Positions 45,692-64,000 of a DNA stretch of 64,000 nt are shown one piece after another; positions within the stretch are counted from its first letter, which is position 1, and each line of letters opens with the position of its first letter. The notes below the pieces were generated by a model. It was not told the DNA's origin. It made no database searches and was given only the letters and a program-made list of their open reading frames with translations. The translations under genes and the position numbers were made by a program. Origin of the DNA: Agrobacterium tumefaciens (GTDB taxonomy: Bacteria > Pseudomonadota > Alphaproteobacteria > Rhizobiales > Rhizobiaceae); the NCBI RefSeq assembly GCF_009649785.1, contig NZ_WJOK01000028.1, positions 1-64,000 of the forward strand, written 5' to 3'.

Positions 45692-46743
45692 CGGCACTCC
45701 CCGTTATTCCTTGCCAGAAACGACAATGCCAGAAGATGCAATGTAGAAGGATAATAAAGCGTTGGCTGAAAGCCTTTCAGTTCGGCAGGCACAGCCGGGC
45801 CGCCGCCGGCGCAGGCCGCGAGCGCCGGAATGATGCGATAACCGGGATCCGACAGAACGTCCTTGACCGCGCCGCTCTTGAGATCGAAGGTTCCCGCAGC
45901 ACCGCTTTCCAGCGTCATGCCGTTTTTCAGGCGGTCAAGCAGCTCCGGCGAGCCCATTTTCGCCCTTGCAAGATAAAGCGGAATCCGCACTGCATTGTAA
46001 CCAAACTCGGGCGGAAACGCCGATGCCGGTTGCGGTTTCGTCTTCATCGACACCCAGTCGGCTGGCAGTTTCCTGTCGCTGAAAGCAAACGTACCGATCT
46101 GCGCCACGCCGTCGTCGGCGAGCGCCTTCCAGAGTGGCGATGGTGCGACGAGATTGAGGACCGGAAATGCTTCGAAAATCAGGTAGGAAGGATTGACCAC
46201 CGGGCCGTCGCCCCGGTCAACCTCGCCAAAGCCGCTGGCGGCGGGCAAAAGCAGCGTTCGCCCGCCGCGCTGAACGACAGTTTTCTTGAGGACGGCCGAT
46301 GCGATGGCCGCCGATGCCTCGGCATAGTCCTGCCGGTTCCACTGCGCGGCAGCCAGCGCCAGCGCGTAGGCAATCAGAATATCGCCATCCGTGGCATTGT
46401 TGATGTCAGTCACATGCGGTCTGGTGCGCGGATCCCATTTCCACGCTGAGAGACCGTCGTCGCGCACCAGGAGTTCCGTGCGGGTAAAACTCCATATCAG
46501 CTCGAAGTCGGCAATGTTCTCTGAAAGAACGGCAAGCCACATGCCGTAACCCTGGCCTTCGCTATGGCTGATATTGCCGTTACCGGTATCGATGATGCGC
46601 CCGCCGGGATCGAGAAACGCACTTTTATAAGCCGACCAGGCCTCAGGCGAGACAGATGCGGCGCGGGCAATCGAGATGCTTGAGATCAACGCCATCAGCG
46701 ACACGCAGAAAATGCCGGCAAGTCTAAAAATCCCACGCCTCAT
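45688..46743 (-). CDS. bcsZ: Endo-beta-1,4-glucanase, GH8 (BcsZ/CelC)
   Basis: A 351-residue secreted glycoside hydrolase family 8 enzyme with signal peptide (LAGIFCVSLMALISSISIARA). The catalytic acid Glu is in DTGNGNISHSEGQGYGMWLAV and the catalytic base Asp in NNATDGDILIAYALALAA; FDLIWSF-type helix, SAWKWDP and FPPEFGYNAVRIPLYLARA follow the family. It trims beta-1,4-glucan in the periplasm during cellulose synthesis. Both ends are coupled: ATGA overlap with bcsB and bcsK. In A. tumefaciens this gene is celC. Confidence 0.93.
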   Translation of the reverse strand: MRRGIFRLAGIFCVSLMALISSISIARAASVSPEAWSAYKSAFLDPGGRIIDTGNGNISHSEGQGYGMWLAVLSENIADFELIWSFTRTELLVRDDGLSAWKWDPRTRPHVTDINNATDGDILIAYALALAAAQWNRQDYAEASAAIASAVLKKTVVQRGGRTLLLPAASGFGEVDRGDGPVVNPSYLIFEAFPVLNLVAPSPLWKALADDGVAQIGTFAFSDRKLPADWVSMKTKPQPASAFPPEFGYNAVRIPLYLARAKMGSPELLDRLKNGMTLESGAAGTFDLKSGAVKDVLSDPGYRIIPALAACAGGGPAVPAELKGFQPTLYYPSTLHLLALSFLARNNGECR

Positions 46744-49226: not shown

Positions 49227-51412
49227 TTTACAACTCCGGCAGGTTTGACGGTTTTGGAGGCGGGCCGGAGCGCCTTGGCCAGATAAAACAGGCCGCGCTG
49301 CGTCTGGAACAGCGATATCGCCAGAAAGATCGCCGTGCCTCTGATGAGGCCGGGGTTCTTGCGGCGCACGCGCTGGAACTCGCTCCATTGCTCGGAATTG
49401 GCGAAGATCAGGTCGGCGATCAGGCGATGATCGATGGCGCGCTGCGGCGAGAATGTGCAGCCTATGGAAATGAAACCGTCGCTCCGGACCGTGCGGACCA
49501 CATTGATGGTCATGGTTTCCGGCACGCCCTCGCTATGCGGCTTCACCCTAATGATCGCTGTCGTGTTCTTTTCGATAGCGGTGATGCTGTCGAAAAGATT
49601 GATCAGCAGGCCATGCACCGACACGTTGTCAATGGAGGCCGGCACCCATGCGTCACTACCCTCAAGCTTGACCTCGCAGCGCCGCTTGACGGTGATGCGC
49701 CGCGACGCCGATTTTTCGCCGCGCTCGGAGACGACGCCAAGCGCACAGCCCGCGAAGATAAGGTTGAGCAGGTTCCAGCCGCCGACGACGAGTGTTACGT
49801 CCGCCTTGTACGGCTCCGCATAGATGCGCCAGATGGCAAAGGCCATCGCAACCAGCAAAAGTGCGAAAATGACGAAGAACGGGCGGCTGATTTCCGAAAG
49901 CCGCGCCTCGGCGATGGATTCGTCCTTCGCCGTCACCTTGAAGGTCGGCTTGCCCGGATTGAAGATCACAGACACGACGGCTGGCAGAAGGTGGACCGTC
50001 TGCACATATTCGTAGAGTTCAGAAATCCACGGCCAGCGGAAGCTGCCATAGAGATAGTTCTGCATCATCAGGTTCACGAGCATATACGCGGCCGTATAAG
50101 CCAAAAACTCGCCGCCGGAAGCCACGAAAATCTGAAGATCGAAGAACAGGTAGAACAACGGCGCAAACAGGAAGATCGTGCGCGGGAACGGGAAAAGCCA
50201 GAACAGCGTCGACGACATGTAGCAAAGACGCTGCGTGAAGGAGAGACCACGGCGGAACAGAGGCTGGCGAAAGATCAGAATCTGCATCATGCCCTGCGCC
50301 CAGCGGCTGCGCTGGCCGATGAAGCTTGCGAAGGTGGCCGGTTGCAGCCCGGCGATCAGGGGCTTGTCGACATAGACGCTGTTCCAGCCGCGCGAATGCA
50401 GCGCGAGCGCCGTTTCGCAGTCCTCGGTGATGCTGACGCCGCTGAACCCTTCCGTATCCAGCAGTGCCTCGCGCCGCAGCACGGCGGCGGAACCACAGAA
50501 AAACGCGCCATTCCACTTGTCGAGACCGCGCTGGATGATGCCGTAAAACATCTCGTTTTCGCTCGGCATCGTCTCGAAGGTGCGCAGATTGCGCTCGATC
50601 GGATCGGGATTGACGAAGAAGTGCGGCGTCTGCACCAGGAAGAGCCGGGGGTCTTCCTCGAAATAGCCCACCGTTTCCAGAAGGAAATCGCGCGCCGGCG
50701 CATGGTCGGCGTCAAACACCGTCACCAGTTCGCCGGTCGAGTGGGCGAGGCCGTTATTGAGATTTCCGGCCTTGGCGTGGACGTTGCGCTCGCGCGTCAG
50801 ATAACGCACGTCGAGGTCCTCGCAAAGCTTCTTCAACTCCTCATGGCGGCGCTGTGCCGCCTGCGCCTCGACGATATTGCTGGCATTGCGCTTCTGCACC
50901 GAGCCGCCGTCGTCCAACAGCCAGACGGTGAACTTGTCGGCCGGGTAATCCATGTTCTTGGCCGCCGCCAGCGTATTGGCGAGAAGCTCCGCGTCCTCGT
51001 TGTAACTCGGCACGAAAACATCGACCGTCGGCCGGTAATCGGGCGAGCCAGGCCGGGTCTTGCGGGAAGGCAGCGGCATCGACACGATGACGAGGCTGAG
51101 ACCCAGCATCACGACGCTATACATTTCCGCGAGATAAAGCAGAAAGCCGGGAATGAAGTTTTCGAGCTGGTTGACGGGCGGCAGCGTGCTCGTGGTGCGC
51201 CAATAGACATAACGAAGCACGATGGCCGTGCCGAAACCAAGCGCCACGAGCCGCCAGGCTCCCTGCCCGTTGAAACTCTTTATTGTTGCGAGAAGGACAA
51301 GCGAGATCGCCGTGGCGACCAGGTGCGTCTGCAGGCTGACCGGCATCGTGACGATGGCCAGAACGCAAAGCGACACAAGAAACCAGACAATGATTGTGAT
51401 GGCCTTGTTCAT
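49223..51412 (-). CDS. bcsA: Cellulose synthase catalytic subunit (BcsA/CelA)
   Basis: A 729-residue inner-membrane GT2 enzyme. Catalytic motifs: DDG 167-169, DxD in VFDADH 234-236, FFCGS 304-308, TED 329-331 and QRSRW 367-371; the gating loop FKVTAK is at 491-496. A C-terminal PilZ domain (about 560-670) contains NVSVHG (596-601), but the usual RxxxR cyclic di-GMP motif reads K567-S-A-S-R571. About eight transmembrane helices surround the GT domain. It polymerises UDP-glucose to beta-1,4-glucan. It starts the tightly overlapped A-B-Z-K series, 82 bases after bcsN. Confidence 0.96.
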   Translation of the reverse strand: MNKAITIIVWFLVSLCVLAIVTMPVSLQTHLVATAISLVLLATIKSFNGQGAWRLVALGFGTAIVLRYVYWRTTSTLPPVNQLENFIPGFLLYLAEMYSVVMLGLSLVIVSMPLPSRKTRPGSPDYRPTVDVFVPSYNEDAELLANTLAAAKNMDYPADKFTVWLLDDGGSVQKRNASNIVEAQAAQRRHEELKKLCEDLDVRYLTRERNVHAKAGNLNNGLAHSTGELVTVFDADHAPARDFLLETVGYFEEDPRLFLVQTPHFFVNPDPIERNLRTFETMPSENEMFYGIIQRGLDKWNGAFFCGSAAVLRREALLDTEGFSGVSITEDCETALALHSRGWNSVYVDKPLIAGLQPATFASFIGQRSRWAQGMMQILIFRQPLFRRGLSFTQRLCYMSSTLFWLFPFPRTIFLFAPLFYLFFDLQIFVASGGEFLAYTAAYMLVNLMMQNYLYGSFRWPWISELYEYVQTVHLLPAVVSVIFNPGKPTFKVTAKDESIAEARLSEISRPFFVIFALLLVAMAFAIWRIYAEPYKADVTLVVGGWNLLNLIFAGCALGVVSERGEKSASRRITVKRRCEVKLEGSDAWVPASIDNVSVHGLLINLFDSITAIEKNTTAIIRVKPHSEGVPETMTINVVRTVRSDGFISIGCTFSPQRAIDHRLIADLIFANSEQWSEFQRVRRKNPGLIRGTAIFLAISLFQTQRGLFYLAKALRPASKTVKPAGVVK

Positions 51413-51494
51413 CCCGAAACTTTCCGCTCTCTTCCCCGCCCGGAATTTTTACCGGGATCTTTTGCAATGCCCTCTTCTGCTGTTGCTCCAGCCA

Positions 51495-52490
51495 TCACCT
51501 GCATCCCGGAGGCGCTGCCGAACCGGACAAACATGTGGGCGACGGAATGGCCACCTGCGGAACCTGCGTCGGCTGCTGGCTCTCCACCTGCACGCTGGCC
51601 GCGCGCCTGCCGACTACAGCAGGCCTTGCGGGCTGGGCGGGCGCGCCAACGGATGCGGGTGACGGAATACTGACTGCCGCAACCGGCGGTAGGGGCTGCG
51701 CCGTTGGCTGAACAGGCGTGACGGGTACGGCAGCACGGCGCACGGGTTGCAATGGTATGCTCGCAGTCACTTCACTGCCGGGCCGCATCGGCACCTCATT
51801 GGTCTTCATGGGATAGACCGGATGGCCCGGCCGCCCAAGGTTCTGATCCACCGCCTGCGGCGTGCCATAGGGGTTCCAGCTTTGCGAGGCATAGGTGCCG
51901 GTGATCGTGTAATTATACATGACCGTCAGAAGCTGCTCGACGCTTGCCGCCGACTGGCAGAGGCGCAGTCGCACCTTGATACGCCCCAGGTTGCGGAAAT
52001 CCTGCCGCATGCTTTCGGGTGAGCGGATGTCCTGCCAGCCATAAAGGCAGGTATCGCTGCCTCGGCCCTTGCCGGCCGCATAAGAAAAGGCGCCGTAACC
52101 GTTCTGCAGATAATTCGCCGACATGACGATGTTCTCACCCGGAAACTCCGAGCGGATTTCCCGCGCGACGGAGGATGCCTTAAAGCCGGAGAAAGTCAAA
52201 GCATCGCGATCAGTGTCGCCGGCTTGCTGCGGACCGAAGAACTCGGCCTTAATGTAGTTCTGTCCGGGCGTAGCGGCTTCGGCGCGCAATACGACCTGCT
52301 GTGCCACGGCATTGGAGTAGGTGCGATTGACTACGGTGACGATTTCCGGACCGCCGGGCGGTGGGAAAACCAGTGCTTCGGACGCAGACAACATCTTTGC
52401 GCCCCCGAACGACCTGACGCCCGAGGGAGTATTGCAGCCCGAAAGAACTGCAATAGAGAATAGCAATGAAGTAAAGGCAGAAAATTTCAC
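51495..52490 (-). CDS. bcsN: Cellulose biosynthesis lipoprotein BcsN
   Basis: About 331 residues from a GTG at 52490, which gives a lipoprotein signal (KFSAFTSLLFSIAVLSGC, lipobox LSGC); no ATG fits this signal and the longer frame upstream begins without one. The conserved BcsN core includes NAVAQQVVLRAEAATPGQNYIKAEFFG, NIVMSANYLQNGYGAFSYA and DTCLYGWQDI; a Pro/Val/Gln-rich tail of about 100 residues follows. BcsN is typical of the rhizobial cellulose operons and of unknown molecular function; an outer-membrane lipoprotein here could help replace the absent BcsC pore, as inference. Confidence 0.8.
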   Translation of the reverse strand: MKFSAFTSLLFSIAVLSGCNTPSGVRSFGGAKMLSASEALVFPPPGGPEIVTVVNRTYSNAVAQQVVLRAEAATPGQNYIKAEFFGPQQAGDTDRDALTFSGFKASSVAREIRSEFPGENIVMSANYLQNGYGAFSYAAGKGRGSDTCLYGWQDIRSPESMRQDFRNLGRIKVRLRLCQSAASVEQLLTVMYNYTITGTYASQSWNPYGTPQAVDQNLGRPGHPVYPMKTNEVPMRPGSEVTASIPLQPVRRAAVPVTPVQPTAQPLPPVAAVSIPSPASVGAPAQPARPAVVGRRAASVQVESQQPTQVPQVAIPSPTCLSGSAAPPGCR

Positions 52491-52827
52491 TGCCCCGTGC
52501 CCCTTTATTTCCCCAAGCCCTAACAGGTTAAAAGGAGACCGAATCACTAATGACCAGACCATTGTTACGAAATACTGGAGGCAGGCGAATAAGCAATATC
52601 AAATTTATATTGTAATTTCTGATGCTTTGTGGCCTCCGAATCGTTTCGGATCCCTTCTTTGCCGGACGAGACGACGGAACCAAATCGCGCTGGTACGGGT
52701 TCGCTCGGCGTGAGGTCGATATTTTTACGGTTGCAGCGCAATATGTCCCATGGTCTACTTGCGTCTATAATGACGTATTTTTATTGATCACTTTTTTCAT
52801 TCAACTGTAAAAACAGAGAGTTGACGC
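52491..52827. promoter_or_regulatory. Divergent control region between bcsN and the epimerase gene
   Basis: AT-rich, about 340 bases without a convincing gene. It holds a perfect inverted repeat TCCGAA-TCGT-TTCGGA (52635-52650), a candidate operator about 145 bases upstream of bcsN. Confidence 0.4.
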
Positions 52828-54012
52828 ATGACTGTGCAATTTCCGAGTATCTCGCAGGCGCTTGCCGAAGAGATCGGAACCTTACGGAAATGGCTTGAAG
52901 AGGACGCGCTACCGCTGTGGTGGGAGGTTGGCTCCGCCCGTCCGGACGGCGGTTTTTACGAGCGCCTGGGCCAGGATGCGAAACCGGTTTTTTCTGATGA
53001 CCGCCGCGCCCGCGTGCAGCCTCGTCAGGCCTATTGTTTCGCTGCCGCCGGCCAGAACGGCTGGCAGGGTCCGTGGAAGGATGCGTTGCTGCATGGGCTG
53101 AGCTGGTTCGAAAAGGTCTATCGCCTCGATAACGGCCTTTACGGCAACCTCGCCGACCAGACCGGCAAGCTGATCGATCCGTCCTTCGATCTCTACAATC
53201 AGGCTTTCGCGCTTTTCGCCGCAGCACAGACGGCCGCAGCCCTTCCCGACCGCAAGGACGAGATGCGTGCCCGGGCGCTCGAGATCCTCGCCGTCCTCAA
53301 TCGCGACTACAAACACCCCGTCGCCGGCTTTGAGGAAGCGAACCCGCCGCGCACGCCGCTGTGCTCCAATCCGCATATGCATCTTTTCGAGGCGATGCTT
53401 GCCTGGGAAGTGCAGGACCCCGAAGGTCCATGGACCGCGCTGGCCGACGAGATCGCCGGCCTTGCACTCACCCGCTTCATCGATGGCACCAATGGCGGGC
53501 TACGCGAATTCTTCGGCCATGACTGGATGCCGTTTGAAGGTGAGAAGGGCCGCATCATGGAGCCCGGTCACCAGTTCGAATGGGCCTGGCTTCTGGTGCG
53601 CTGGGGCAGCCTGCGCAACAATGGCGAGGCAATCGCCAAGGCCAAGCGCATGTTCGAGATCGGCGAAGCGCATGGCATCTGCCCACGCCGCAAGGTCGCG
53701 ATCATGAGCTTGTACGATGATTTTTCGGTACATGACGGTCTGGCACGGCTCTGGCCGCAGACGGAATGGCTGAAGGCAGCCTTGCGCCTTGCCAGCGTGA
53801 CCATTGGTGAAGAAAGACAGCGTTATCTTGCCTCGGGCCTGAGGGCCATCGGCGCGCTGCAGCCTTTCCTCGACACACCGGTCAAAGGGCTTTGGTTCGA
53901 CAAATGGCCGGCCGACAAGCCGATGCTGGACGAACCGGCACCGGCCAGCACTTTCTACCACATCGTCTGCGCCATCTATGAGGCTGAGGCAGTACTCGCC
54001 TCCAGCCATTAG
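52828..54012 (+). CDS. N-acylglucosamine 2-epimerase family protein, mannose isomerase type
   Basis: A 394-residue (alpha/alpha)6-barrel enzyme of the AGE family. Conserved pieces: WWEVGSARPDGGFYERLGQD, RVQPRQAYCFAAAG, NPHMHLFEAMLAW (His183, His185), the catalytic His248 in EPGHQFEWAWLL and His378 in STFYHIVCAIYEAE. The two catalytic His match D-mannose isomerases and YihS-type aldose-ketose isomerases better than renin-binding epimerases, in which the second is also conserved, so a D-mannose/D-fructose interconversion is the likeliest guess. It sits alone on the plus strand between the cellulose and APS-like operons. Confidence 0.8.
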   Translation: MTVQFPSISQALAEEIGTLRKWLEEDALPLWWEVGSARPDGGFYERLGQDAKPVFSDDRRARVQPRQAYCFAAAGQNGWQGPWKDALLHGLSWFEKVYRLDNGLYGNLADQTGKLIDPSFDLYNQAFALFAAAQTAAALPDRKDEMRARALEILAVLNRDYKHPVAGFEEANPPRTPLCSNPHMHLFEAMLAWEVQDPEGPWTALADEIAGLALTRFIDGTNGGLREFFGHDWMPFEGEKGRIMEPGHQFEWAWLLVRWGSLRNNGEAIAKAKRMFEIGEAHGICPRRKVAIMSLYDDFSVHDGLARLWPQTEWLKAALRLASVTIGEERQRYLASGLRAIGALQPFLDTPVKGLWFDKWPADKPMLDEPAPASTFYHIVCAIYEAEAVLASSH

Positions 54013-54060: not shown

Positions 54061-55026
54061 TCAGTTAAGCCGCGCCGGGCGCACAACGCGCCAGTCGGGC
54101 TTGCCGAGATTGTGCGGCCATGGATGCACGTCCTTGTCGTTGAAATAGACGACCTCTTCCAGCTTGGGAAAATCCGCCTGTTTCAGCGTCACGTCGTTCA
54201 TCCATGGACGGACGTAGGAATCGCCGCCTTCATAACCCAGTTCAGCAACCCAGACCGGTTTATTGAAGGTTTCGACAAGCCCATAGCCCTTGCGCAGGAG
54301 ATCGGTGAACTTCTGCGGCCCGCCATATTCGATCTTGTCATAGTCCTCGAGACCGAAGACCGAGAGACCGACCAGGTCCGCGTAATTGTCACCAGGATAG
54401 TAAGCGCGCAGACCGTCAAGACCTTTCGGCGACCACATCACCTTGACGCCGGGGACCGCCTTGCGGGTCATGTCCACCATGCGTTTGTAGGCCGTGATAT
54501 AGTCCTGCGGGTTCCAACCCGACCACGAGAAGCGGCCGGATGTGTCTTCCATTTCCTGTCCCCAACGCAGGATCAGCGGGCTCTTCATTGCGGACATGCG
54601 TGCGGCGATCGCCTGCATGTTCTTGTCGTAATCGCCTCCCATCACCTTGCGGCGCAACTCGTCGGAGGTGAGCCGCCAGTTGACGTCCCATGACCAGGGT
54701 TCGACCGTGATCAGCACGTTACGCTTGCGCTCCAGAGCGTAAGCGTCTGCGAGCGCGAGGCTGTCGAGATCCACGTCCTCCCAGGGCAGGAACAGATGTT
54801 CCGTCGCCACCCCGGTCTGGCCGGTGAAATCGCCGTGCGGATCGTAGGCGCCGAAGCGTATACCATCCGCGTGCAATGTCGGACGTTTGTCGGCAAGCGT
54901 CTTCATGCCCGTGGAGCCCATGGGCGCGACCCCTTGGGCATCCAGTTTGAATATGGGGTACATGCTGGCTGAAGCAGCAACAGCAGCCCCGCTTGCAAAG
55001 AGCAGTCTTCTTCTTGTTATTTGCAT
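54061..55026 (-). CDS. apsE: GH26-like glycoside hydrolase of the APS-type operon (ApsE-like)
   Basis: A 321-residue secreted protein. The N-terminus MQITRRRLLFASGAAVAASA resembles a twin-arginine signal. The body is a (beta/alpha)8 GH26-like enzyme: acid/base Glu in LILRWGQEMEDTSGRFSWSGW and nucleophile Glu in NKPVWVAELGYEGG. AGGAGG lies before the ATG. By position, last in uxs-uxe-apsS-apsH1-apsE, it corresponds to apsE of S. meliloti. It probably trims or releases the polymer in the periplasm, as BcsZ does for cellulose; substrate inferred from context only. Confidence 0.75.
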   Translation of the reverse strand: MQITRRRLLFASGAAVAASASMYPIFKLDAQGVAPMGSTGMKTLADKRPTLHADGIRFGAYDPHGDFTGQTGVATEHLFLPWEDVDLDSLALADAYALERKRNVLITVEPWSWDVNWRLTSDELRRKVMGGDYDKNMQAIAARMSAMKSPLILRWGQEMEDTSGRFSWSGWNPQDYITAYKRMVDMTRKAVPGVKVMWSPKGLDGLRAYYPGDNYADLVGLSVFGLEDYDKIEYGGPQKFTDLLRKGYGLVETFNKPVWVAELGYEGGDSYVRPWMNDVTLKQADFPKLEEVVYFNDKDVHPWPHNLGKPDWRVVRPARLN

Positions 55027-55557: not shown

Positions 55558-57486
55558 CTATTGTCCGACCCTATTGTCGGCCAGCATGATTTCTCCGGTT
55601 GTCATGACCGGTGGCGGCACCATGGGCTCCGCCTGCATGTTTCGAATTCCGGGCATTCCCGGCAGTACGATGCGCAGTTTCAGACGCACCGATCTCGCTC
55701 CCTCCACGCCAGCACCGGCCACGGTGAACCGCGTTTCGGTGAAGCTGACATAGGGTTGCCCGTGCGACAGGGCCTCCAGCCCACCAATCGCATGGGAGCT
55801 GAGTTCCGCGGCACTACCTGCCACAAGCAGTAACGAACAGGCGGCAACCGTCGCCCCACCGCGCAATGCCGGCAGCCGTGGCAAGCCGTTTTCCATGGTG
55901 TGTCGGACGAGAAGAAAAACCGAAAGGCCCGCGTAGATCGCCACATTGATCGCGGCGAAGACGAAGAAACCTTCCGCAGCGTTTTCACGCGGCGCCAGCA
56001 CCATTGCGAGAAGGCTTAGTGCCGCCAGAACCATGTAAGGCGCGATTACACGCAGCGGCAGCGGCGGTTTTGCCTGCGTGCCCTTGGGTGTAATGCGAAA
56101 GTCGACGAAATCACCACGGATCGTATCGCGTATCGCCGCAAGCACACCCATCAACGACCAGGGCCAGCGCAGGAACAGAAACACGATGGCTTCCCACCCG
56201 AAGAGTTTCGCATCATGCGGGCGAAAGGCCCCCGTGGCCCGCCAGAAAAAGGCGAACACGATCATGATGAGCGAAATCGGCAGGAAATGCGCCAGAAACA
56301 CTGGATAGGAGGCATTGACGAGTACCTGGCCGCTCAACAGTGCAAAAGCGGGAAGCACGAACATCAGTGCCATGAAGCCGGAAAACAGGGGATACCAGAG
56401 CTGTGAAAACAGGAACTGGAATTTCAACCGCAAGGGAAGCTTCGGCACGTAATGCCGCGAATATTGCAAGAGGATGGTCATCAGACTGCGTGACCACTGG
56501 AATTCCTGCACCACGAGATCGGTAAAAGTCACCGGCCCGTCGCCATGCGCGATTGCGTTGACGGCATGGACGCCGCGCCAGCCGCCCGCATTCATCAAAA
56601 GCGTGGTGGAATGGTCCTCGGCAAGCTCGGGTCCCAGACCGCCCACCTCACGCAGGGCTTTGGTGCGCACGGCGTAATGCGAGCCGATACAAAGCGGCGC
56701 CCAGCTGTTGTTGTAACCCAGCTGCAGGGCGCCGTGCAGGCTTGCCTCGGCATAAAGCCTGCCACGCGCAGCCCAGCTCTCCTTTGCATTGGCATCGCAG
56801 ATGCTTGGTGCGGAGACATATCCAACCGCCGGATCGGCGAAAGGACGGATGATTTCACTCAGATAGTCCGGTTCCGGAACGTGATCGGCGTCGAATTGCG
56901 CGACGAAATCATAACGCTCATACCCGTAATGATCGTAGAAATAAGCGAGATTGCCTTCCTTGCAACGGGTGCGGCGAGGCCATGTCTTGCGGTGATAATC
57001 GACGACACCCCTCCGGGTCGAAACGAAAACACCGTGCGCGCCGCACCATTTCAACGTTTGCGCATCCGGGTCCTCATCCGCAAGCCACACGTCAAATTCC
57101 AGGCCCTTCTGCTCCAGCATGGCCTGCAGCGTCTTTTGTACTACGGTAAATGGCTCCGACGGCGCCTTGGTTACAACCATCGCCACCCTGCCCTGCGGCA
57201 GAGGAGAGCGCCGGTCGACGACCCTTGCGTTCAGGAAGATGAAGATGAAATAGGACGGCAGAAGCGTGATCCACGCGAGTGTTACCGTAACGATCGTAAA
57301 ATACGGCCAGTCGATGACCCGATCCCGGTCCAGCCACCAGATCCAGAAATAGGCAAGCGTCACCAGCCAACCGCCAATGCCGAGACGATAGGCCATGCGG
57401 TTCCAGCCGGTGAAGACGGGCAGCATTGGCAATTGGCCCGCGACGGGACGCGATGATGGTACGGAAGGGGTAGAGCGAGCTTTCAT
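55558..57486 (-). CDS. apsS: Cellulose-synthase-like GT2 polysaccharide synthase (ApsS-like)
   Basis: A 642-residue membrane glycosyltransferase with two N-terminal helices, a GT2 domain and about five C-terminal helices. Motifs: LADED 135-139, FDADH 198-202, AEDHSTT 289-295. In place of the Q(Q/R)xRW product-binding motif of cellulose synthases it has QEFQW (327-331), which fits a different sugar. A beta-rich C-terminal tail of about 120 residues replaces a PilZ domain. Gene order after uxs and uxe is that of the S. meliloti APS cluster, so UDP-arabinose is the likely donor. Coupled to uxe by ATGA. Confidence 0.75.
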   Translation of the reverse strand: MKARSTPSVPSSRPVAGQLPMLPVFTGWNRMAYRLGIGGWLVTLAYFWIWWLDRDRVIDWPYFTIVTVTLAWITLLPSYFIFIFLNARVVDRRSPLPQGRVAMVVTKAPSEPFTVVQKTLQAMLEQKGLEFDVWLADEDPDAQTLKWCGAHGVFVSTRRGVVDYHRKTWPRRTRCKEGNLAYFYDHYGYERYDFVAQFDADHVPEPDYLSEIIRPFADPAVGYVSAPSICDANAKESWAARGRLYAEASLHGALQLGYNNSWAPLCIGSHYAVRTKALREVGGLGPELAEDHSTTLLMNAGGWRGVHAVNAIAHGDGPVTFTDLVVQEFQWSRSLMTILLQYSRHYVPKLPLRLKFQFLFSQLWYPLFSGFMALMFVLPAFALLSGQVLVNASYPVFLAHFLPISLIMIVFAFFWRATGAFRPHDAKLFGWEAIVFLFLRWPWSLMGVLAAIRDTIRGDFVDFRITPKGTQAKPPLPLRVIAPYMVLAALSLLAMVLAPRENAAEGFFVFAAINVAIYAGLSVFLLVRHTMENGLPRLPALRGGATVAACSLLLVAGSAAELSSHAIGGLEALSHGQPYVSFTETRFTVAGAGVEGARSVRLKLRIVLPGMPGIRNMQAEPMVPPPVMTTGEIMLADNRVGQ

Positions 57487-58466
57487 GACAGCACCTCCAA
57501 CCCGAAGCCGGGACCAGCCGTGCGGATGATGGTGTCTATATCGGAGCGCTTCGGCGCAAAGCCGAGGGTCGCCCTCGCTCTTTCTATATCAGCGAACAGG
57601 GCGGGCGGATCACCGGCGCGCCTTGCGCCGAAATGTACCGGCACTTCCTGTCCCGTGACGCGATGGATCGCGCGGATGATATCCCCGACCGATGTGCCGT
57701 GGCCGGAGCCGAGATTGACACGCAGGGTCTCGCCGCCATCGGAAAGATAGTTGACGGCGGCCACATGGGCGTCAGCCAGATCGCTGACATGGATGTAGTC
57801 GCGGATACAGGTGCCGTCGCTGGTGTCGTAGTCCTGGCCGAAGACGTCAAGTTGCGGCAGCCGCGAGGCGGCGGCCATCAGTGCCCGGGGGATCAGATGG
57901 GTTTCCGGCTCGTGGCGTTCGTAAAGTTCGCCATCCGGGTCGGCACCCGCCGCATTGAAGTAGCGCAGAGCGACGAAACGCATGCCATAGGCGGCAGCGT
58001 AATCATCGAGCGCCATTTCGAAAATCAGCTTCGTACGACCGTAGGGATTGACCGGGATCTGCGCCGTTTCCTCGCGGATCGGTAATTGCGGCGGCACGCC
58101 ATAGGTGGCGCAGCTGGAGGAAAATACCAGCCCGCCGATATTCTGGTCGAGACAAGCATCCAGAAGCGCCAGACTGCCGCCGACATTGTTGCGGTAATAT
58201 TTGCGCGGATCCTCAACGGATTCGCCGACATAGGCATTTGCGGCGCAATGGATGACGAAGGCTGGCGAGAACTCCTTGAGCGTGGCCTTCAAGAGACTAC
58301 GATCCAGAATGTCGCCTTCAATGAAGGGACCCCAGCGAACTGAATCCGCGTGACCCGTCGAGAGATTATCGTAAGCAATGGGCTTGAAGCCGGAATGCGC
58401 CAGCGCCTTGCAGATGTGGCTGCCTATGAATCCGGCCCCGCCCGTGACGAGGATTGTACGGGACAT
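57483..58466 (-). CDS. uxe: UDP-sugar 4-epimerase (Uxe-like, UDP-xylose/UDP-glucose 4-epimerase)
   Basis: A 327-residue extended SDR of the GalE type starting at 58466 (MSRTILVTGGAGFIGSHICKAL). The Ser/Tyr/Lys catalytic set is in VFSSSCATYG and PVNPYGRTKLIFE; FVALRYFNAAGADPDGE is the GalE signature. Directly behind a UDP-glucuronate decarboxylase gene and before a cellulose-synthase-like gene, it corresponds to S. meliloti uxe, reported to interconvert UDP-xylose/UDP-arabinose and UDP-glucose/UDP-galactose. Sequence alone does not separate it from GalE/ExoB, so the name rests on gene order. Confidence 0.78.
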   Translation of the reverse strand: MSRTILVTGGAGFIGSHICKALAHSGFKPIAYDNLSTGHADSVRWGPFIEGDILDRSLLKATLKEFSPAFVIHCAANAYVGESVEDPRKYYRNNVGGSLALLDACLDQNIGGLVFSSSCATYGVPPQLPIREETAQIPVNPYGRTKLIFEMALDDYAAAYGMRFVALRYFNAAGADPDGELYERHEPETHLIPRALMAAASRLPQLDVFGQDYDTSDGTCIRDYIHVSDLADAHVAAVNYLSDGGETLRVNLGSGHGTSVGDIIRAIHRVTGQEVPVHFGARRAGDPPALFADIERARATLGFAPKRSDIDTIIRTAGPGFGLEVLS

Positions 58467-58467
58467 C

Positions 58468-59490
58468 TCATACGGCCTCCGCAACCTTCTTGCCGGCCAG
58501 CAGCGCATCGAAATAGACGATGGTTTTCTCCAGACCGGTTTCGAGCGGTACGCGCGGTTGCCATCTGAGCATTTCCTTGGCACGCGAAATATCGGGACGA
58601 CGCTGCTGCGGATCATCGATCGCAGCGGGCAGATGCACGATGCGCGAGCGGGAATTCGTCATGCGGATGACGATATCGGCCAGCTGCCGCACCGGAATTT
58701 CAGTCGGGTTGCCGAGATTGATCGGTCCGGTGCAATCCTTCGGCTTAGCTGAAAAACGCAGGAACCCGTCGATCAGATCATCGACGTAGCAGAAGGAGCG
58801 CGTCTGGCTGCCGTCGCCATAAATGGTGATGTCCGACCCCTTCAGCGCCTGGACGATGAAGTTGGAGACCACCCGCCCGTCATCGGGGCGCATGCGCGGC
58901 CCATAGGTGTTGAAGATGCGCCCAACCTTGATATCGACGCCATAAAAGCGGTGATAATCGAAAAAAAGCGTTTCGGCGCTGCGCTTGCCCTCATCGTAGC
59001 AGGCTCGCGGCCCGATTGTATTTACGTTGCCGAAATAGCTTTCCGGCTGCGGATTGACGAGCGGGTCGCCATAGACTTCCGATGTCGAGGATTGCACCAC
59101 GGTTGCACCGCATCTGCGAGCGACTTCGAGAACGTTGACCGCGCCGAGCACATTGGTAAGCAGGGTGCCGACTGGATCACGCTGGTAGTCCGGCGGCGAG
59201 GCCGGCGACGCGAAGTTGAAGATCAGCGAGACGTCGATGTCATAGGGCTTGCGGACATCATGCTCGACCATCAAAAACCGCTTGTTGGCTTGCAAATGCT
59301 CAACATTAACGGTCCGTCCAGTCGAAAGATCGTCGAGACAGATCACCTCATGACCGCAAGCCAACAGACGTTCGCAAAGATGGGAGCCAAGGAAACCAGC
59401 CCCGCCGTTGACCAGAACGCGCTGGCCTGGCCGCCACTCGGAATAGATTGTAGCGCCGTTGTCATGGTCGTTGGGAACGAAATTACGCAT
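58468..59490 (-). CDS. uxs: UDP-glucuronate decarboxylase (UDP-xylose synthase, Uxs)
   Basis: A 340-residue extended SDR with the UXS-specific stretch: NFASPASPPDYQRDPVGTLLTNVLGA, SSTSEVYGDPLVNPQPESYFGNVN, IGPRACYDEGKRSAETLFFDY and RIFNTYGPRMRPDDGRVVSNFI. The catalytic Tyr/Lys are in CYDEGKR. It oxidises, decarboxylates and reduces UDP-glucuronate to UDP-xylose. The start at 59490 follows GGGAGGAG. It heads the operon uxs-uxe-apsS-apsH1-apsE; a long AT-rich control region lies upstream. Confidence 0.9.
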   Translation of the reverse strand: MRNFVPNDHDNGATIYSEWRPGQRVLVNGGAGFLGSHLCERLLACGHEVICLDDLSTGRTVNVEHLQANKRFLMVEHDVRKPYDIDVSLIFNFASPASPPDYQRDPVGTLLTNVLGAVNVLEVARRCGATVVQSSTSEVYGDPLVNPQPESYFGNVNTIGPRACYDEGKRSAETLFFDYHRFYGVDIKVGRIFNTYGPRMRPDDGRVVSNFIVQALKGSDITIYGDGSQTRSFCYVDDLIDGFLRFSAKPKDCTGPINLGNPTEIPVRQLADIVIRMTNSRSRIVHLPAAIDDPQQRRPDISRAKEMLRWQPRVPLETGLEKTIVYFDALLAGKKVAEAV

Positions 59491-59886
59491 TACACACTCC
59501 TCCCAATGAGGAACCAGCCCGGCTGATTCGACTTGAACTAGATCAAACTCCAGATTGCAGGATATTTCGAATGTCACCTCCGGTTTTTATTTCTTCTGGA
59601 GGTTTTAATATTTAGATTCGGTATATTTCAACTTTTATGATAGGCGCGTCATAAAACAGGTCAACTTTATTTTATCGAAATATTACAATTGATTACCCCG
59701 AATTACTCGTATTAATCACTCGATTTAATACTTTTTAACTACGCCTCCATTATGCCTTTCTTATTGAGCATTAGCGCAAGCTTCGCTCAACCAGTCGGGA
59801 CTATTCTGGTTTTGTAAGGCTCGGTCCACCGGGGCAAAACCACCCGGCGAGATGCGACAGCTAGTCGATTTCAGGGGACATACATC
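59491..59886. promoter_or_regulatory. Control region upstream of the APS-type operon
   Basis: About 400 AT-rich bases between divergent uxs and a small lipoprotein gene, no gene seen. It has a perfect inverted repeat TTTTATGA-N8-TCATAAAA (59633-59656) centred 154 bases before the uxs start, and a wider ACCTCC/GGAGGT pair (59576-59581, 59598-59603) that would fold in the uxs leader. Confidence 0.5.
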
Positions 59887-60297: not shown

Positions 60298-61068
60298 TCA
60301 GTTTCTCCAGCCGGAGATAGCCGCGTCGTCGTCCTTGTGAAAGAAGCGCGATGCTGCCTCCGTTCGGTTGCGCACATTCATCTTCTTATAGATGTTGCGA
60401 ACGTGCACCTTCACGGTATTCTCGGACAGGTGAAGCCGGTCGGCGATGATCTTGTTTTGCGTTCCCTTGCAAAGCAGGTCGAGGATTTGCACCTCGCGCG
60501 TCGTCAGCGCCGCCATTTCACTCTTGCTGACGGCAAGAGCGTCGGCGCGGTTGGCGATCACGGCGTTGCTTTGAACGCTTTTGCCGTTCACGGCCTGGGA
60601 ATAGGGGGTGAGCTTGCCGAGAAGGGCAGCGGGAAAATGCTCCCCGCCCTTCATGAGGAGATCAACCGCCGCCATGAAAACATCGAGCCGCAGATTAAGC
60701 GGCAGCACGCCATCGATGATACGCATCCCCACCAGTTGCTTCAGCGGCTCCTCAAACTTGTCGATGGTTTCGACGACAAGTGCAATTGGGGCATCCGGAT
60801 GCTTTTCGTGGACTGCCGAAAGAACGCTATGAAGCCGCTCGCCCGACATACGGTACGGCAGGACCAGCCGGACATCGGCGCCATAGTCATCGTCGATCGT
60901 TGCCGAGGACATAACGCTCATCACAGCGAATGTAGGGAACTTTTTGCCCAGCGCCTCCACGAGGCACTCGGAAAACAGGTCCGGATCCGCGATGATCAAT
61001 AAAGTTCCATTTATAGGCGCAACGGCTCCACTTTGTTTTGCCGCATAATCTGAAGTTCCCATGAACAT
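60298..61068 (-). CDS. LuxR-family response regulator-like transcription factor
   Basis: A 256-residue protein from ATG 61068 with strong AGGGGAG upstream; starts further up at 61125 or GTG 61170 have poor sites. The N-terminal part is receiver-like (GTLLIIADPDLFSECLVEALGKKFPTFAVMSV) but the expected phospho-Asp position is uncertain (DDDYGADVRLVLPYRMSG), so it may be an unphosphorylated pseudo-receiver. The C-terminal helix-turn-helix is clear: LTTREVQILDLLCKGTQNKIIADRLHLSENTVKVHVRNIYKKMNVRNRTEAA. Target unknown; neighbours are polysaccharide and exported-protein genes. Confidence 0.85.
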   Translation of the reverse strand: MFMGTSDYAAKQSGAVAPINGTLLIIADPDLFSECLVEALGKKFPTFAVMSVMSSATIDDDYGADVRLVLPYRMSGERLHSVLSAVHEKHPDAPIALVVETIDKFEEPLKQLVGMRIIDGVLPLNLRLDVFMAAVDLLMKGGEHFPAALLGKLTPYSQAVNGKSVQSNAVIANRADALAVSKSEMAALTTREVQILDLLCKGTQNKIIADRLHLSENTVKVHVRNIYKKMNVRNRTEAASRFFHKDDDAAISGWRN

Positions 61069-61976
61069 CGACGTCTCCCCTAAAGCGCTACGCATTACGT
61101 TCTTTTTGGTTGTGTGCTCTGTCATTCGCCGGGATACCCCTAGAAACAAATGGGGCAACTCCCGCTTCACGCCATGTCAACTATCATTAATTACCCGTTA
61201 ATTAAGGAGGCTAATACGAAAAGCTGTGCAAAGAAATGGCCCAAATGGGTTATTTCTTGCAATTGACGTACAAAATTGGTTACGCCCGTAATGAATCGTT
61301 GAGCCCGGAACCAGTGTAAAAACAAACACATCGGAAAAGCTTTCGCTCCGGTTTTGCAATCCGGGAAAATATAACTTTTGGTTGATATCCCTTTACATAC
61401 CTGCCCGGCAAACGAGCTTCCGGAATGTGCCATTTCGGGATAGGGACCCTTCTCACCGCCATTGACTATATTTTTAGGAAAAGCAGCTTTTCCCGGCCTG
61501 AGCGCAATTATTTGCGTCTGAACCGGCGGCAAATCTCCATGCGACCGCCTTCCGACATATATATTGGTGGTAAGGGTGCCGATATGTTTAGCCCGAATTG
61601 ATAGCTAGGAAGCGCGATTTTTCTGCTGCACAGTCTGACCGTCGCTGCAAACAGTGACCGATGGAAAGACAACCCCGGCCTTTGACGTGTGTTTGCAAAC
61701 GCCGGTTCCTTTTCAAGACATAACGAAAGCAAAAAGACGAAGCCACCGCGCTCCCAACGGAGCGAGGAACGGATTTGTGCGCCTTAATACCGAGTAGCGC
61801 ACAAGGGCTGAACGAGAAGAGCCCGGTTACGGGCCGATGCCAAGCCGCAGATGAGACGTACCGAGTGCATCTGCAGAACATCAATCTTTGTGCAACGCGG
61901 AGCAAGCGCGAAAAAATCCCGTTTTAGATGAGAGGGATTTCGAAAGCTGCTCCGAGCTTTTTCGGAGGAAATCGAC
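61069..61976. other. Long non-coding stretch upstream of the acidic repeat protein
   Basis: About 0.9 kb with no convincing gene; the short minus-strand frames have unnatural composition and no ribosome sites. It holds a 28-bp interrupted palindrome (61231-61258) and a short GGAAAAG-CAG-CTTTTCC hairpin at 61477-61493. The length fits a heavily regulated promoter or an undetected small RNA. Confidence 0.4.
61231..61258. repeat. Interrupted palindrome upstream of the LuxR-type gene
   Basis: Arms AAGAAAT-gg-CCCA and TGGG-tt-ATTTCTT around AA: 11 of 13 arm positions pair. It lies 163-190 bases before the regulator's start. Probable protein-binding site rather than terminator, since no T-run follows. 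Confidence 0.5.
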
Positions 61977-62939
61977 ATGGGTTACAATCCACAGCCTGCG
62001 GGCGACGACATCACCAAGATTGGCGCGCTTTCGGAGGGTTTCGCCAACACCTCGACCAATGACGCAAAGGTGGACGACAGCAATGTCGGCACCGCAAACG
62101 GTGAAAACCGCAACAACGACAACAGCGACAACAGCACCAATGTGGATGTTGACGCCAAAATCGACGTTGCAGTGGGCAACGGCGACAATCGCGACAACGA
62201 CTATGACTGGAGCTATGACAGCAAGTCTTACAGCGACAACGATACGACCGTAAAGACGAGCACCGAAACCAGCACCGAAATCAAGACCGATTACGACTGG
62301 AGCTATGAAAGCAAGTCGTACAGCGACAATGACACCAACGTGAAGACGGTCACGGATACGGACACCAAGACCTTCTCCTATTCCGACGACGACACGACAA
62401 CAACAACAACGACGACTTCCGACAGCTTCAACTCCGCTGACAGTTTCTACAAGTCGGATGACGACTTCGGCAACATCGCCGGCGTCAAGGATGTCGGCAA
62501 TCTCGGCATCGCTGGCGGAGACCTCACCTTTAACCTCGGTGACGACTTCTCCTTCACACTTGATGTCGACAATATCCTCAACAGCTCGCTCAACGGCGAA
62601 GGCAACGACACGGGCTTCAGCCTTGTGCAGGCCAACCACCTGGCGGATCAGGATCAGGCCTGGGATGTCAGGATGGACAATGGTGGTGCCCAGAACCACC
62701 TGAGCGCGAATGCCGGCGACGCCTTTGGCGCAGAAGGCATGGACGGCAAGGGATGGGACCTCAAGGCTGGCGACGACGCTGCGGGTACCAGCACTGCAGA
62801 TGCATCGGCTATCCTTGCAAACTCCGGCTTCCATCTGGAACTGGTGCAGGGCGCCAACATGCTCTCCAATGCCGTTGATGTCTCGGTCACAGGCGGTAAC
62901 TCGCATGTTTCTGATACCGGCGAGGACAGCGGCTCCTGA
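61977..62939 (+). CDS. Acidic, cysteine-free, Asp/Asn/Ser/Thr-rich repeat protein, unknown
   Basis: A 320-residue protein behind an excellent GGAGGAAATCGAC-ATG. It has no signal peptide, no Cys, and very acidic, low-complexity composition. Two near-identical 20-residue units DYDWSY[DE]SKSYSDNDTxVKT lie at 75-94 and 105-124 (period 30), followed by an eight-Thr run at 140-147. The C-terminal half (165-320) is Gly/Asp-rich and beta-like, with NLGDDFSFTLDVDNI and two QxN-type segments (218-231, 291-304). Such composition suits an unfolded, Ca-binding or type I secreted surface protein. I do not recognise the family. Terminator-like hairpin follows, then the partner gene. Confidence 0.75.
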   Translation: MGYNPQPAGDDITKIGALSEGFANTSTNDAKVDDSNVGTANGENRNNDNSDNSTNVDVDAKIDVAVGNGDNRDNDYDWSYDSKSYSDNDTTVKTSTETSTEIKTDYDWSYESKSYSDNDTNVKTVTDTDTKTFSYSDDDTTTTTTTTSDSFNSADSFYKSDDDFGNIAGVKDVGNLGIAGGDLTFNLGDDFSFTLDVDNILNSSLNGEGNDTGFSLVQANHLADQDQAWDVRMDNGGAQNHLSANAGDAFGAEGMDGKGWDLKAGDDAAGTSTADASAILANSGFHLELVQGANMLSNAVDVSVTGGNSHVSDTGEDSGS

Positions 62940-62954
62940 CGAGTACCTCTCTAT

Positions 62955-62990
62955 GAAAAAAGCTGCACCGGCATTCGCCGGTGCAGTTTG
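62955..62990. terminator. Hairpin between the acidic repeat protein and its partner gene
   Basis: Perfect 10-bp stem CTGCACCGGC/GCCGGTGCAG (62963-62972 with 62977-62986), ATTC loop, then TTTG; A-run on the other side. It may reduce read-through between the two genes and set their ratio. Confidence 0.6.
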
Positions 62991-63090
62991 CGGTTGAAGG
63001 ACCGGGTTTGCGCGAAGACGAAGCACCGCCTCTTGGACGTGTGCCGCCCGCCGCCCAGGCTCTGCCGCGATGATCAGGGAGGGACCTGCA

Positions 63091-64000
63091 ATGCAAATCG
63101 ACAGAATTTCAGACATGATTGCGCATTTCATCGGCCTGTTCGACACGGTGATCGAGGAAGCGCGTCTAAGAAGCAACTATGCCGAAGGCACGGCACACGC
63201 GAACAAAGACCGGTTGTCGGATGATGACGCGGCAAGACTGCTAGACAAGACCTACGACTTGCAGCTTCAGGATTACGATCCCGGCGTTAAATATCGCGCC
63301 GGCTATTACGACTTCGACTATCTGCAACCGCATTTCGCTCGCATGGTCGAACACGACATGCAGCAGCTTGCAAATGCGATACCGGTAGATATGTCAGCCG
63401 CGCATTTCCGTTTTCCGGGCAGTGTCTCCTTTGAGCAAGAACGCGAACTGGTGGTGCACACCGGCCCGGGCTCGGTTATCGCGCATGTCACGCAGGTCAA
63501 CATTCTTCAGGACGACGACTATCTGAACATGACGGACGGCCCAAATGTGGCGCGCGACACCAGTTTCGTGACCCAGCGCACCGTCGAGTTCCATAACGAA
63601 GCAGCCGTCTTCACGCCCTTTTCCGTTTTCCAGCGCACCGACAGCTACGACGCGTTGCAGGCGCTCGCCAAATCAGCACATGATTATATCGACCATGCGC
63701 GCGAAAATGACGTGACGTCCCTTGGAACCGGCGCGGAACAGGATTTCGTTCTCGCCGGCAATGACATCAACGGCCTCTACATCAATGGCTCCATGGCAAG
63801 CGAAAAGCCAATGCTCGACGACTTCATGCCGGATCGTGGCATTGCCAAGCCCGCTGAAGAGCCTGAAAAGAGCGATGTTTCGCTGCATGAGGATAGCCCC
63901 GCCGGAAACAGCCTCGATGTGGCTGCCGGCGCAAATGTCGTCGCCAACATAGCAACGCTGGTCAATACTGCCGTCATGGCCTCCGTCACCACCGTCATGG
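63091..64000 (+). CDS. Large acidic protein of unknown function, 3' end beyond window
   Basis: An open frame of at least 303 codons from ATG 63091, behind GGGAGGG, still open at the window end. No signal peptide; no Cys in the visible part. The start MQIDRISDMIAHFIGLFDTVIEEARLRSNY looks helical; later parts are beta-like and acidic (GSVIAHVTQVNILQDDDYLNM, DFVLAGNDINGLYINGS, GNSLDVAAGANVVANIATLVNTA). The segment QVNILQDDD (135-143) resembles QANHLADQD in the preceding protein. Lack of a signal, absence of Cys and acidity resemble type I secretion substrates. I do not recognise the family; transporter genes could lie to the right. Confidence 0.75.
   Translation, partial: MQIDRISDMIAHFIGLFDTVIEEARLRSNYAEGTAHANKDRLSDDDAARLLDKTYDLQLQDYDPGVKYRAGYYDFDYLQPHFARMVEHDMQQLANAIPVDMSAAHFRFPGSVSFEQERELVVHTGPGSVIAHVTQVNILQDDDYLNMTDGPNVARDTSFVTQRTVEFHNEAAVFTPFSVFQRTDSYDALQALAKSAHDYIDHARENDVTSLGTGAEQDFVLAGNDINGLYINGSMASEKPMLDDFMPDRGIAKPAEEPEKSDVSLHEDSPAGNSLDVAAGANVVANIATLVNTAVMASVTTVM

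Follow-up and report, generated by a model that had tools for sequence, protein, structure and literature searches.

A pair of acidic, cysteine-free proteins as candidate cargo of a ToaDE-type type I exporter in Agrobacterium tumefaciens

Two acidic proteins of no known family encoded at a contig edge

We analyzed a 64,000-nucleotide stretch of Agrobacterium tumefaciens DNA (assembly GCF_009649785.1, contig NZ_WJOK01000028.1; hereafter the window), which comprises the first 64,000 bases of the 65,378-base contig C21 of a 5.67 Mb genome. At its right edge lie two adjacent genes, here called A and B, which encode acidic proteins and are followed directly by the genes of a type I exporter, of which we propose them to be substrates (Table 1).

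Table 1 Features of the module and its surroundings in the window.
Feature	Position in window	Strand	Remarks
Gene A	61977..62939	+	320 residues, Asp/Asn/Ser/Thr-rich, cysteine-free, mostly low-complexity; proposed type I substrate
Hairpin between A and B	62963..62986	+	GC-rich, perfect 10-bp stem, 4-base loop
Gene B	63091..64000, continuing to contig position 65112	+	first 303 of 673 residues in window; predicted beta-rich repeat core; proposed type I substrate
LuxR/GerE-type regulator of the module, divergent	60298..61170	-	PF00196, 76.6 bits
Nucleotide-sugar enzyme of the UDP-glucuronic acid decarboxylase kind (UXS)	58468..59577	-	best NCBIfam match below cut-off; homolog so annotated in Sulfitobacter
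UDP-glucose 4-epimerase GalE	57483..58616	-	TIGR01179, 390.7 bits (cut-off 262.3)
Family 2 glycosyltransferase (GT2), polysaccharide synthase-like	55558..57486	-	PF13632, 59 bits (cut-off 27)
GH26-kind glycosyl hydrolase (weak), tied to polysaccharide genes	54061..55026	-	PF02156, 25.4 bits (cut-off 20.2)
N-acylglucosamine 2-epimerase family gene	52828..54012	+	
Cellulose genes	43349..52562	-	TPR protein, GH8/BcsZ, BcsB, catalytic subunit, BcsN

Both genes are preceded by a visible ribosome site (CGGAGGAAATCGACATG for A, GGGAGGGACCTGCAATG for B), and their coordinates agree with a first-pass annotation of the window. That annotation had described the products as cysteine-free, acidic and lacking a signal peptide, a description that we can extend to the complete proteins: the A protein has no cysteine, an isoelectric point (pI) of 4.05 and a net charge of -44, and the full 673-residue B likewise has no cysteine, with a pI of 4.21 and a net charge of -69. 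No signal-peptide-like segment was seen at either start by hydropathy (best 19-residue Kyte-Doolittle mean, -0.06 for A and 1.04 for B), no signal-peptide program having been used. The 20-residue repeats reported for A at 75–94 and 105–124 are present and identical at 18 of 20 positions, and the reported motifs were found in their places, QANHLADQD at 218–226 and a QGAN stretch at 291 in A, and QVNILQDDD at 135–143 in B.

The absence of a known family, also noted at first pass, held in wider searches. Neither A nor the portion of B inside the window had a match in Pfam or NCBIfam; at E ≤1 Pfam had no match for A or for full-length B, and neither passed an NCBIfam cut-off. The two NCBIfam matches obtained with A and three full B proteins were below threshold (16 and 13.4 bits vs cut-offs of 143 and 645). 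When 42 B and 10 A members were searched, Pfam returned single-member matches only, at E 0.007 or worse, and no RTX, curlin or cadherin-like family was matched by the 10 A members (E 1), the 42 B members (0.1) or the full B. A PDB sequence search with B and A gave one dehydrogenase match at E 1.9 and otherwise none, and a search of phage records gave no match.

A type I exporter follows gene B

Downstream of gene B, whose end is at contig position 65112, the gene of a PrtD-type ABC transporter starts after 76 bases, at 65189. Contig C21 stops inside this gene: residues 1–59 are on C21 and residues 65–736 at the start of contig C57, where the remainder of PrtD is followed by an HlyD adaptor and a small gene. 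The PrtD part (C57:31-2046) and the adaptor (C57:2058-3419) are, respectively, 93% and 95% identical to their counterparts in a relative (G024), whose PrtD scores 796.7 bits against TIGR01842 (cut-off 510.15) and whose HlyD scores 419.4 bits against TIGR01843 (cut-off 208.65). With both proteins above their NCBIfam cut-offs and encoded side by side, this is a PrtD/HlyD type I system, and the first-pass prediction of such a system just beyond the window was borne out. The search for HlyB, HlyD and TolC genes that it had recommended thus succeeded for the transporter, of PrtD type, and for HlyD, but not for TolC: the three paired-OEP (TolC-type) proteins of the genome are encoded on C19, C8 and C62, and none on C21 or C57. 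Neither downstream genes unrelated to secretion nor a clear cytoplasmic family for A or B, the two outcomes it had named as contrary, was found. The assembly break itself (end of C21/L002, start of C57/L166) falls in the N-terminal low-complexity part of the exporter, and 16 terminal bases are common to both ends.

The constancy of this arrangement was assessed in a scan of named genomes, which yielded 286 pattern-matching stretches, 168 of them encoding a B relative; the best 80 were kept and gave 78 loci, so that figures given for these loci describe the closer half of the B family. As the A protein of each locus we took the product of the closest open frame of strongly acidic character preceding B, a choice in which the motif played no part. 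A profile built from ten A proteins recognizes A in 74 of the 78 loci and misses L150, L151, L153 and L154, where A was chosen by composition and place and where both A motifs described below are present. Counting only loci with room, that is, with enough flanking sequence to show the neighbor in question (at least 8.8 kb for upstream polysaccharide genes), a full PrtD gene comes after B in 69 of 69, an HlyD gene likewise in 69 of 69, 67 of 67 have a gene for a protein of ~163 residues, and in 75 of 76 a LuxR-type homolog is located no more than 5 kb upstream of B (L091 lacks it). The module is compact, and A and B are conserved together within it; it is made up of a LuxR-type regulator, A, mostly a hairpin, B, PrtD, HlyD and the ~163-residue protein.

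Given this constant linkage, their composition and the absence of Sec-like signals, we infer that A and B are substrates of the adjoining exporter, export itself being a prediction. As neither protein has a Sec-like signal, the case for export rests on the adjoining exporter; the first-pass wording "exported-looking" thus does not apply to the Sec route. An acidic pI is known for RTX proteases, the absence of cysteine for RTX lipases, and both for S-layer RTX proteins (PMC3034196). The resemblance of A and B to RTX proteins, those of S-layers included, lies in type I export, acidity and Asp-containing turns, and some RTX chains of the adenylate cyclase toxin occur low in the list of fold matches of B; the difference is that A and B have no Pfam RTX family match.

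The small gene bears on another reading of the module, as an antibacterial weapon, contact-dependent or diffusible, for which the ~163-residue protein would supply immunity. Its presence in every locus with room would suit this, but no toxin family was matched in Pfam or NCBIfam, the small gene adjoins the regulator and not A and B in Sulfitobacter and Paracoccus, and B, at 61–89% identity among the genus genomes that have it, displays no visible hypervariability. We consider a weapon very improbable.

Two further observations concern the module proteins. The ~163-residue protein is without a family (L166:3524-4051; L063:4765-5280, minus strand) and is mostly encoded after the adaptor, though beside the regulator in distant loci. 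The module PrtD has an N-terminal extension before its TIGR01842 match, of 178 residues in G024 and 267 in G041 and much shorter in Paracoccus (L061:10375-12582 and relatives); it often contains a Gly-rich linker and an invariant H-x-R and is possibly a substrate-recognition part.

The module is alphaproteobacterial in the genomes sampled

In a sample of 61 genomes (our own, a further 36 from the genus and 24 representing other families of the order), A and B were found in the identical 29 genomes, namely our own, 27 of the 36 and 1 of the 24. B was present in 41 of 199 genomes of the family, in 2 of 289 drawn from the class and in 8 of 299 drawn from the phylum, our own genome being included in each count. 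Because all 8 carriers of the phylum sample fall within the class, the B system is alphaproteobacterial as far as sampled. B is also encoded in 32 plasmid records. Annotated gene tables present the same set of genes around B in Shinella, Sulfitobacter, Paracoccus and Qingshengfaniella, and that of Sinorhizobium meliloti Ak57 has a gap where the scan finds PrtD.

Among the 78 loci the A proteins are of low complexity, range from 188 to 714 residues (counted from the first possible start codon, which makes some overlong, as in L083 and L079) and are free of cysteine in 61 cases. Much longer A proteins, up to 1006 residues, occur in Rhodobacterales and Mesorhizobium (L074:4425-7445; L155:6688-8850), with Gly/Ala/Asp-rich repeats between the two conserved motifs, and those of Sinorhizobium are shorter than 240 residues.

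A and B share a conserved motif

The full B protein contains five copies of Q-x5-D-x-D (at 135, 314, 389, 447 and 545), where 0.33 are expected and where none of 5000 shuffles did as well. In an alignment of 42 B proteins, reaching down to 31% identity with its first row, the Q and D residues of these copies, 15 positions in all, are each retained in 41 or 42 of the 42 rows. A second motif, G-x-N-x3-N-x-A, has four copies in B (280, 413, 472 and 576); every copy retains its first N in at least 41 of the 42 rows, and the second N is retained in 41, 36, 42 and 42 rows, respectively.

A single Q-x5-D-x-D, as in A (Q218 to D226), is unremarkable on its own, since at least one copy arises in 686 of 5000 shuffles of A. 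Yet this motif and GAN-x3-[NH] (G292-A-N-x3-N298 in A) are both present in all 78 A proteins, and in an alignment of ten A sequences 7 of the 13 invariant columns fall in the two motifs. Since the five B copies exceed what shuffles give, their positions are conserved and 78 of 78 A proteins carry it, the motif shared by A and B is real; the first-pass annotation had proposed it on evidence from single sequences that would not have shown this. A profile of the Q motif scored best on the 20-residue repeats of A, not on Q218. The idea of A as a one-repeat homolog of B was statistically unsupported and was dropped, leaving a resemblance at the level of motifs.

A predicted beta-rich repeat core in B

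The fold was predicted with AlphaFold2 on 42 B proteins, the one folded being that of Rhizobium nepotum (L078), which is 89% identical. The whole-protein model reached a predicted local distance difference test (pLDDT) of 70.7 and a predicted TM-score (pTM) of 0.69, with a confident middle and low confidence at the ends (~1–115 and 619–673) and in two short stretches (252–271 and 353–363). The model of the core (pLDDT 80.5, pTM 0.75) consists almost entirely of strands, with short helices between the repeats. We take B to have a repeat core that is predicted to be beta-rich and is probably solenoid-like.

Foldseek against the PDB ranked CsgA (8c50, E 0.024) and FapC (9nqd, E 0.15) best for the core and FapC (9u4u, E 0.082) first for whole B, all of them weak and non-significant matches. 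Lower in the core list, and equally non-significant, were tapirin adhesins, polysaccharide lyase, SufD, ice-binding proteins and some RTX chains, and the TM-scores were at most 0.14. When the core was aligned with 49 Foldseek chains by VIA-align, only FapC (Z 3.9, root-mean-square deviation 3.8, 75 residues aligned) and CsgA (8enq; Z 2.2, deviation 4.5, 72 aligned) reached Z ≥2, values that may reflect a mere common arrangement. Whole B against 76 chains gave a 42-residue match of the N-terminal helix only. The single match among viral predictions was an uncharacterized Tetraselmis virus protein (E 8.5e-4, probability 0.10).

These matches invite comparison with functional amyloids. The pair might be a two-component amyloid exported by the type I system, in which B (or A) polymerizes by stacking its Asn/Gln repeats while its partner acts as nucleator or cap. 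In FapC, conserved Asn/Gln networks within imperfect repeats hold the structure together (PMC12392863), and curlin repeats follow N-x-hydrophobic-x-hydrophobic-x-Q (PMC10192328). FapC/FapB and CsgA/CsgB are comparable to the pair in their imperfect Asn/Gln-containing beta repeats and two-subunit design, and they supply the best, though weak, fold matches of B and the only chains at VIA Z ≥2. The encoding of two motif-sharing proteins near cellulose genes also speaks for this reading. However, every fold score is weak, with none at E ≤0.001 and TM-scores of 0.04 to 0.14 for the amyloid chains; no curlin repeat was matched in Pfam; the repeats of B are few and broken by helical inserts; and profiles of the B repeats give A no score above shuffles. 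Fap layers are built in a Greek-key cross-beta arrangement from repeats of ~39 residues, and the match of B to FapC is weak over its 75 residues. Curli subunits form a beta-solenoid of stacked repeats; the model of B is beta-rich, and its match to CsgA is weak. Curli are exported by CsgG and Fap through FapF, in place of the type I route here. Taken together, an amyloid seems unlikely to us.

The exporter of strain 3841 is very probably ToaDE

In Rhizobium johnstonii 3841 (NC_008380, L110) the module spans ~89.5–98.6 kb, with HlyD at 90117–91475 and PrtD at 91472–93769. Very probably this exporter is ToaDE (RL0072/RL0071): gene order, coordinates near 90–94 kb and the nearby RL0079 synthase agree, the tags having been matched by position rather than read from the annotated record. 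On the same footing, A and B of this strain would be RL0074 and RL0073.

Strain 3841, then named R. leguminosarum bv. viciae, has four type I systems, of which toaDE is one (Krehenbrink and Downie, 2008; PMC2275737). That paper states that no known type I substrate gene lies within 10 kb of toaDE, calls the system enigmatic, reports synteny of toaDE in S. meliloti and A. tumefaciens, and gives no TolC for strain 3841 in its table (PMC2275737). No ToaDE substrate was found in the literature searched, whose scope excluded most subscription papers and all preprints, and the passages of a review that concerns rhizobial toaDE (PMC10925705) name none. Because the module is linked to an exporter that is very probably ToaDE, without a substrate since 2008, the strongest candidates for that missing cargo are A and B. 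The position, order and neighboring gene numbers of the exporter match those of ToaDE; what differs is that A and B are proposed here as cargo, where none is known for ToaDE.

The discoverers allowed that ToaDE might not secrete proteins (PMC2275737), which leaves room for A and B as cytoplasmic or inner-face accessories of the pump, such as chaperones, with something else being exported. The conserved N-terminal helix of B, of low confidence in the model, could also serve such a role. Against it stand the scores of PrtD and HlyD, well above protein-exporter cut-offs, the absence of cysteine from most A proteins, and their length range and low complexity, which fit an extracellular spacer better than a chaperone. 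An accessory role is quite improbable in our judgment.

A hairpin between A and B

The gap between A and B holds a perfect stem of at least 8 bp in 68 of 78 loci, as against 6 of 390 control stretches inside B. The sequence CACCGG is found in 59 of the 68 stems, and the 9 stems without it may be other structures. In our own genome the exact hairpin pattern occurs nowhere else. A plain terminator at 62963–62986 was not adopted as the explanation, only 18 of the 68 hairpins having at least 4 T in the next 8 bases; a partial terminator, or a structure that protects the 3′ end, is just as likely as a plain one. The hairpin may set the expression ratio of the two genes, with more A than B, or shield the A transcript at its 3′ end.

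Polysaccharide genes beside the module

To the left of the regulator lie genes for UXS, GalE and GT2 (Table 1), with a DUF995 protein also among them. All three are found upstream of the module in 44 of the 75 loci with room. They adjoin it in Sulfitobacter too, a genus of another taxonomic order, an argument for linking the polysaccharide with the module in some members of the family at least. The cellulose genes lie ~9–19 kb from gene A (catalytic subunit: TIGR03030, 1015 bits), and the epimerase gene is located between them and the GT2/GalE cluster.

The polysaccharide synthase RL0079, which would be the GT2 of the module locus, is reported to be induced in pea rhizospheres, and its insertion strain to be a slow-growing rhizosphere-competitiveness mutant whose mutation was not transducible (PMC4495286).

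Such neighbors could also point to B as a calcium-dependent surface adhesin or lectin of the Rap kind, which would bind the neighboring polysaccharide with A as spacer or co-factor. Rap proteins are type I-secreted, calcium-binding lectins for acidic exopolysaccharide (PMC4149787), and both the adjoining type I exporter and the paired D-x-D turns of B, as well as the frequent polysaccharide genes, would agree with a similar role. On the other hand, Pfam gave no cadherin-like, RTX or lectin match for the pair, which sets A and B apart from Rap and cadherin-like adhesins. We regard an adhesin as possible, though doubtful. Export of the PrsD/PrsE type is comparable in that it serves surface and biofilm proteins of rhizobia (RapA, PlyB, cadherin-like; PMC2275737, PMC4149787), but its many substrates are scattered and several are RTX or cadherin-like, whereas A and B fall outside these families and lie beside their own exporter.

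A proposed surface or matrix structure

The reading that we favor, and consider probable, is that A and B are the dedicated cargo of a ToaDE-type exporter and fold outside the cell into a surface or matrix structure together with the neighboring polysaccharide. Both would pass out of the cytoplasm as unfolded acidic chains that lack a signal peptide. Once outside, B would form a beta-rich repeat rod, as in the model, with its conserved Asn, Gln and Asp residues stacked and its D-x-D turns possibly binding calcium. A would be a mostly disordered, very acidic chain that may dock on B through its two motifs, which resemble halves of a B repeat, and the hairpin would raise its amount over that of B. 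The pair might then build a surface or biofilm-matrix structure with the adjacent GT2/GalE/UXS polysaccharide and perhaps with cellulose. For the surface or secreted two-component structure suggested at first pass, the support is that of genomic context.

Several results weigh against this reading. Profiles of the B repeats scored A no better than shuffled A (36 and 98 of 500 shuffles reached its score), and hhalign of A against B gave a probability of 0.7%, though its top alignment was exactly the Q motif. Foldseek found no significant match of B in the PDB (none at E ≤0.001). In 31 of the 75 loci with room, the upstream region lacks at least one of the polysaccharide genes. A toaD mutant was unchanged in growth, motility, biofilm rings, supernatant proteins and nodulation; when toaD was combined with prsD and tobD in double and triple mutants, supernatants and tested phenotypes were like those of prsD alone (PMC2275737). 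Those laboratory conditions therefore revealed neither export nor a matrix role, and the matrix or surface role, which the neighbors suggest, receives no support from the sole published mutant test.

A more specific form of the proposal is a new kind of two-component matrix fiber, in which B would polymerize outside through ladders of Asn, Gln and Asp and the disordered, acidic A, bearing the two half-motifs of the repeat, would nucleate, cap or decorate it, the whole being exported by ToaDE, switched by the LuxR-type regulator and laid down with polysaccharide and cellulose. We consider this unlikely. If true, alphaproteobacteria would have an equivalent of the curli-plus-cellulose matrix whose export machinery is unrelated.

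The gain is two candidate substrates, representing new protein families, for an orphan exporter; they would belong among type I-secreted surface or matrix proteins, a known kind, and not to a categorically new system unless the two-component fiber proves true. The exporter described in 2008 was enigmatic for want of a cargo, mutants notwithstanding; two precise candidates travel along with it in 69 of 69 loci with room, and the question therefore becomes a one-strain experiment. A matrix structure, if confirmed, would mean that biofilm formation and root attachment in Agrobacterium, Rhizobium, Sinorhizobium and marine roseobacters involve a protein component so far unrecognized.

Database curators would in turn gain a name for entries such as "hypothetical protein", "type I secretion protein ATPase" and "fibrinogen-binding protein". 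The second is the public label of B in Sulfitobacter faviae (L075:5998-8106) and the third that of A in Shinella (L071:6884-7855); no family match supports either label.

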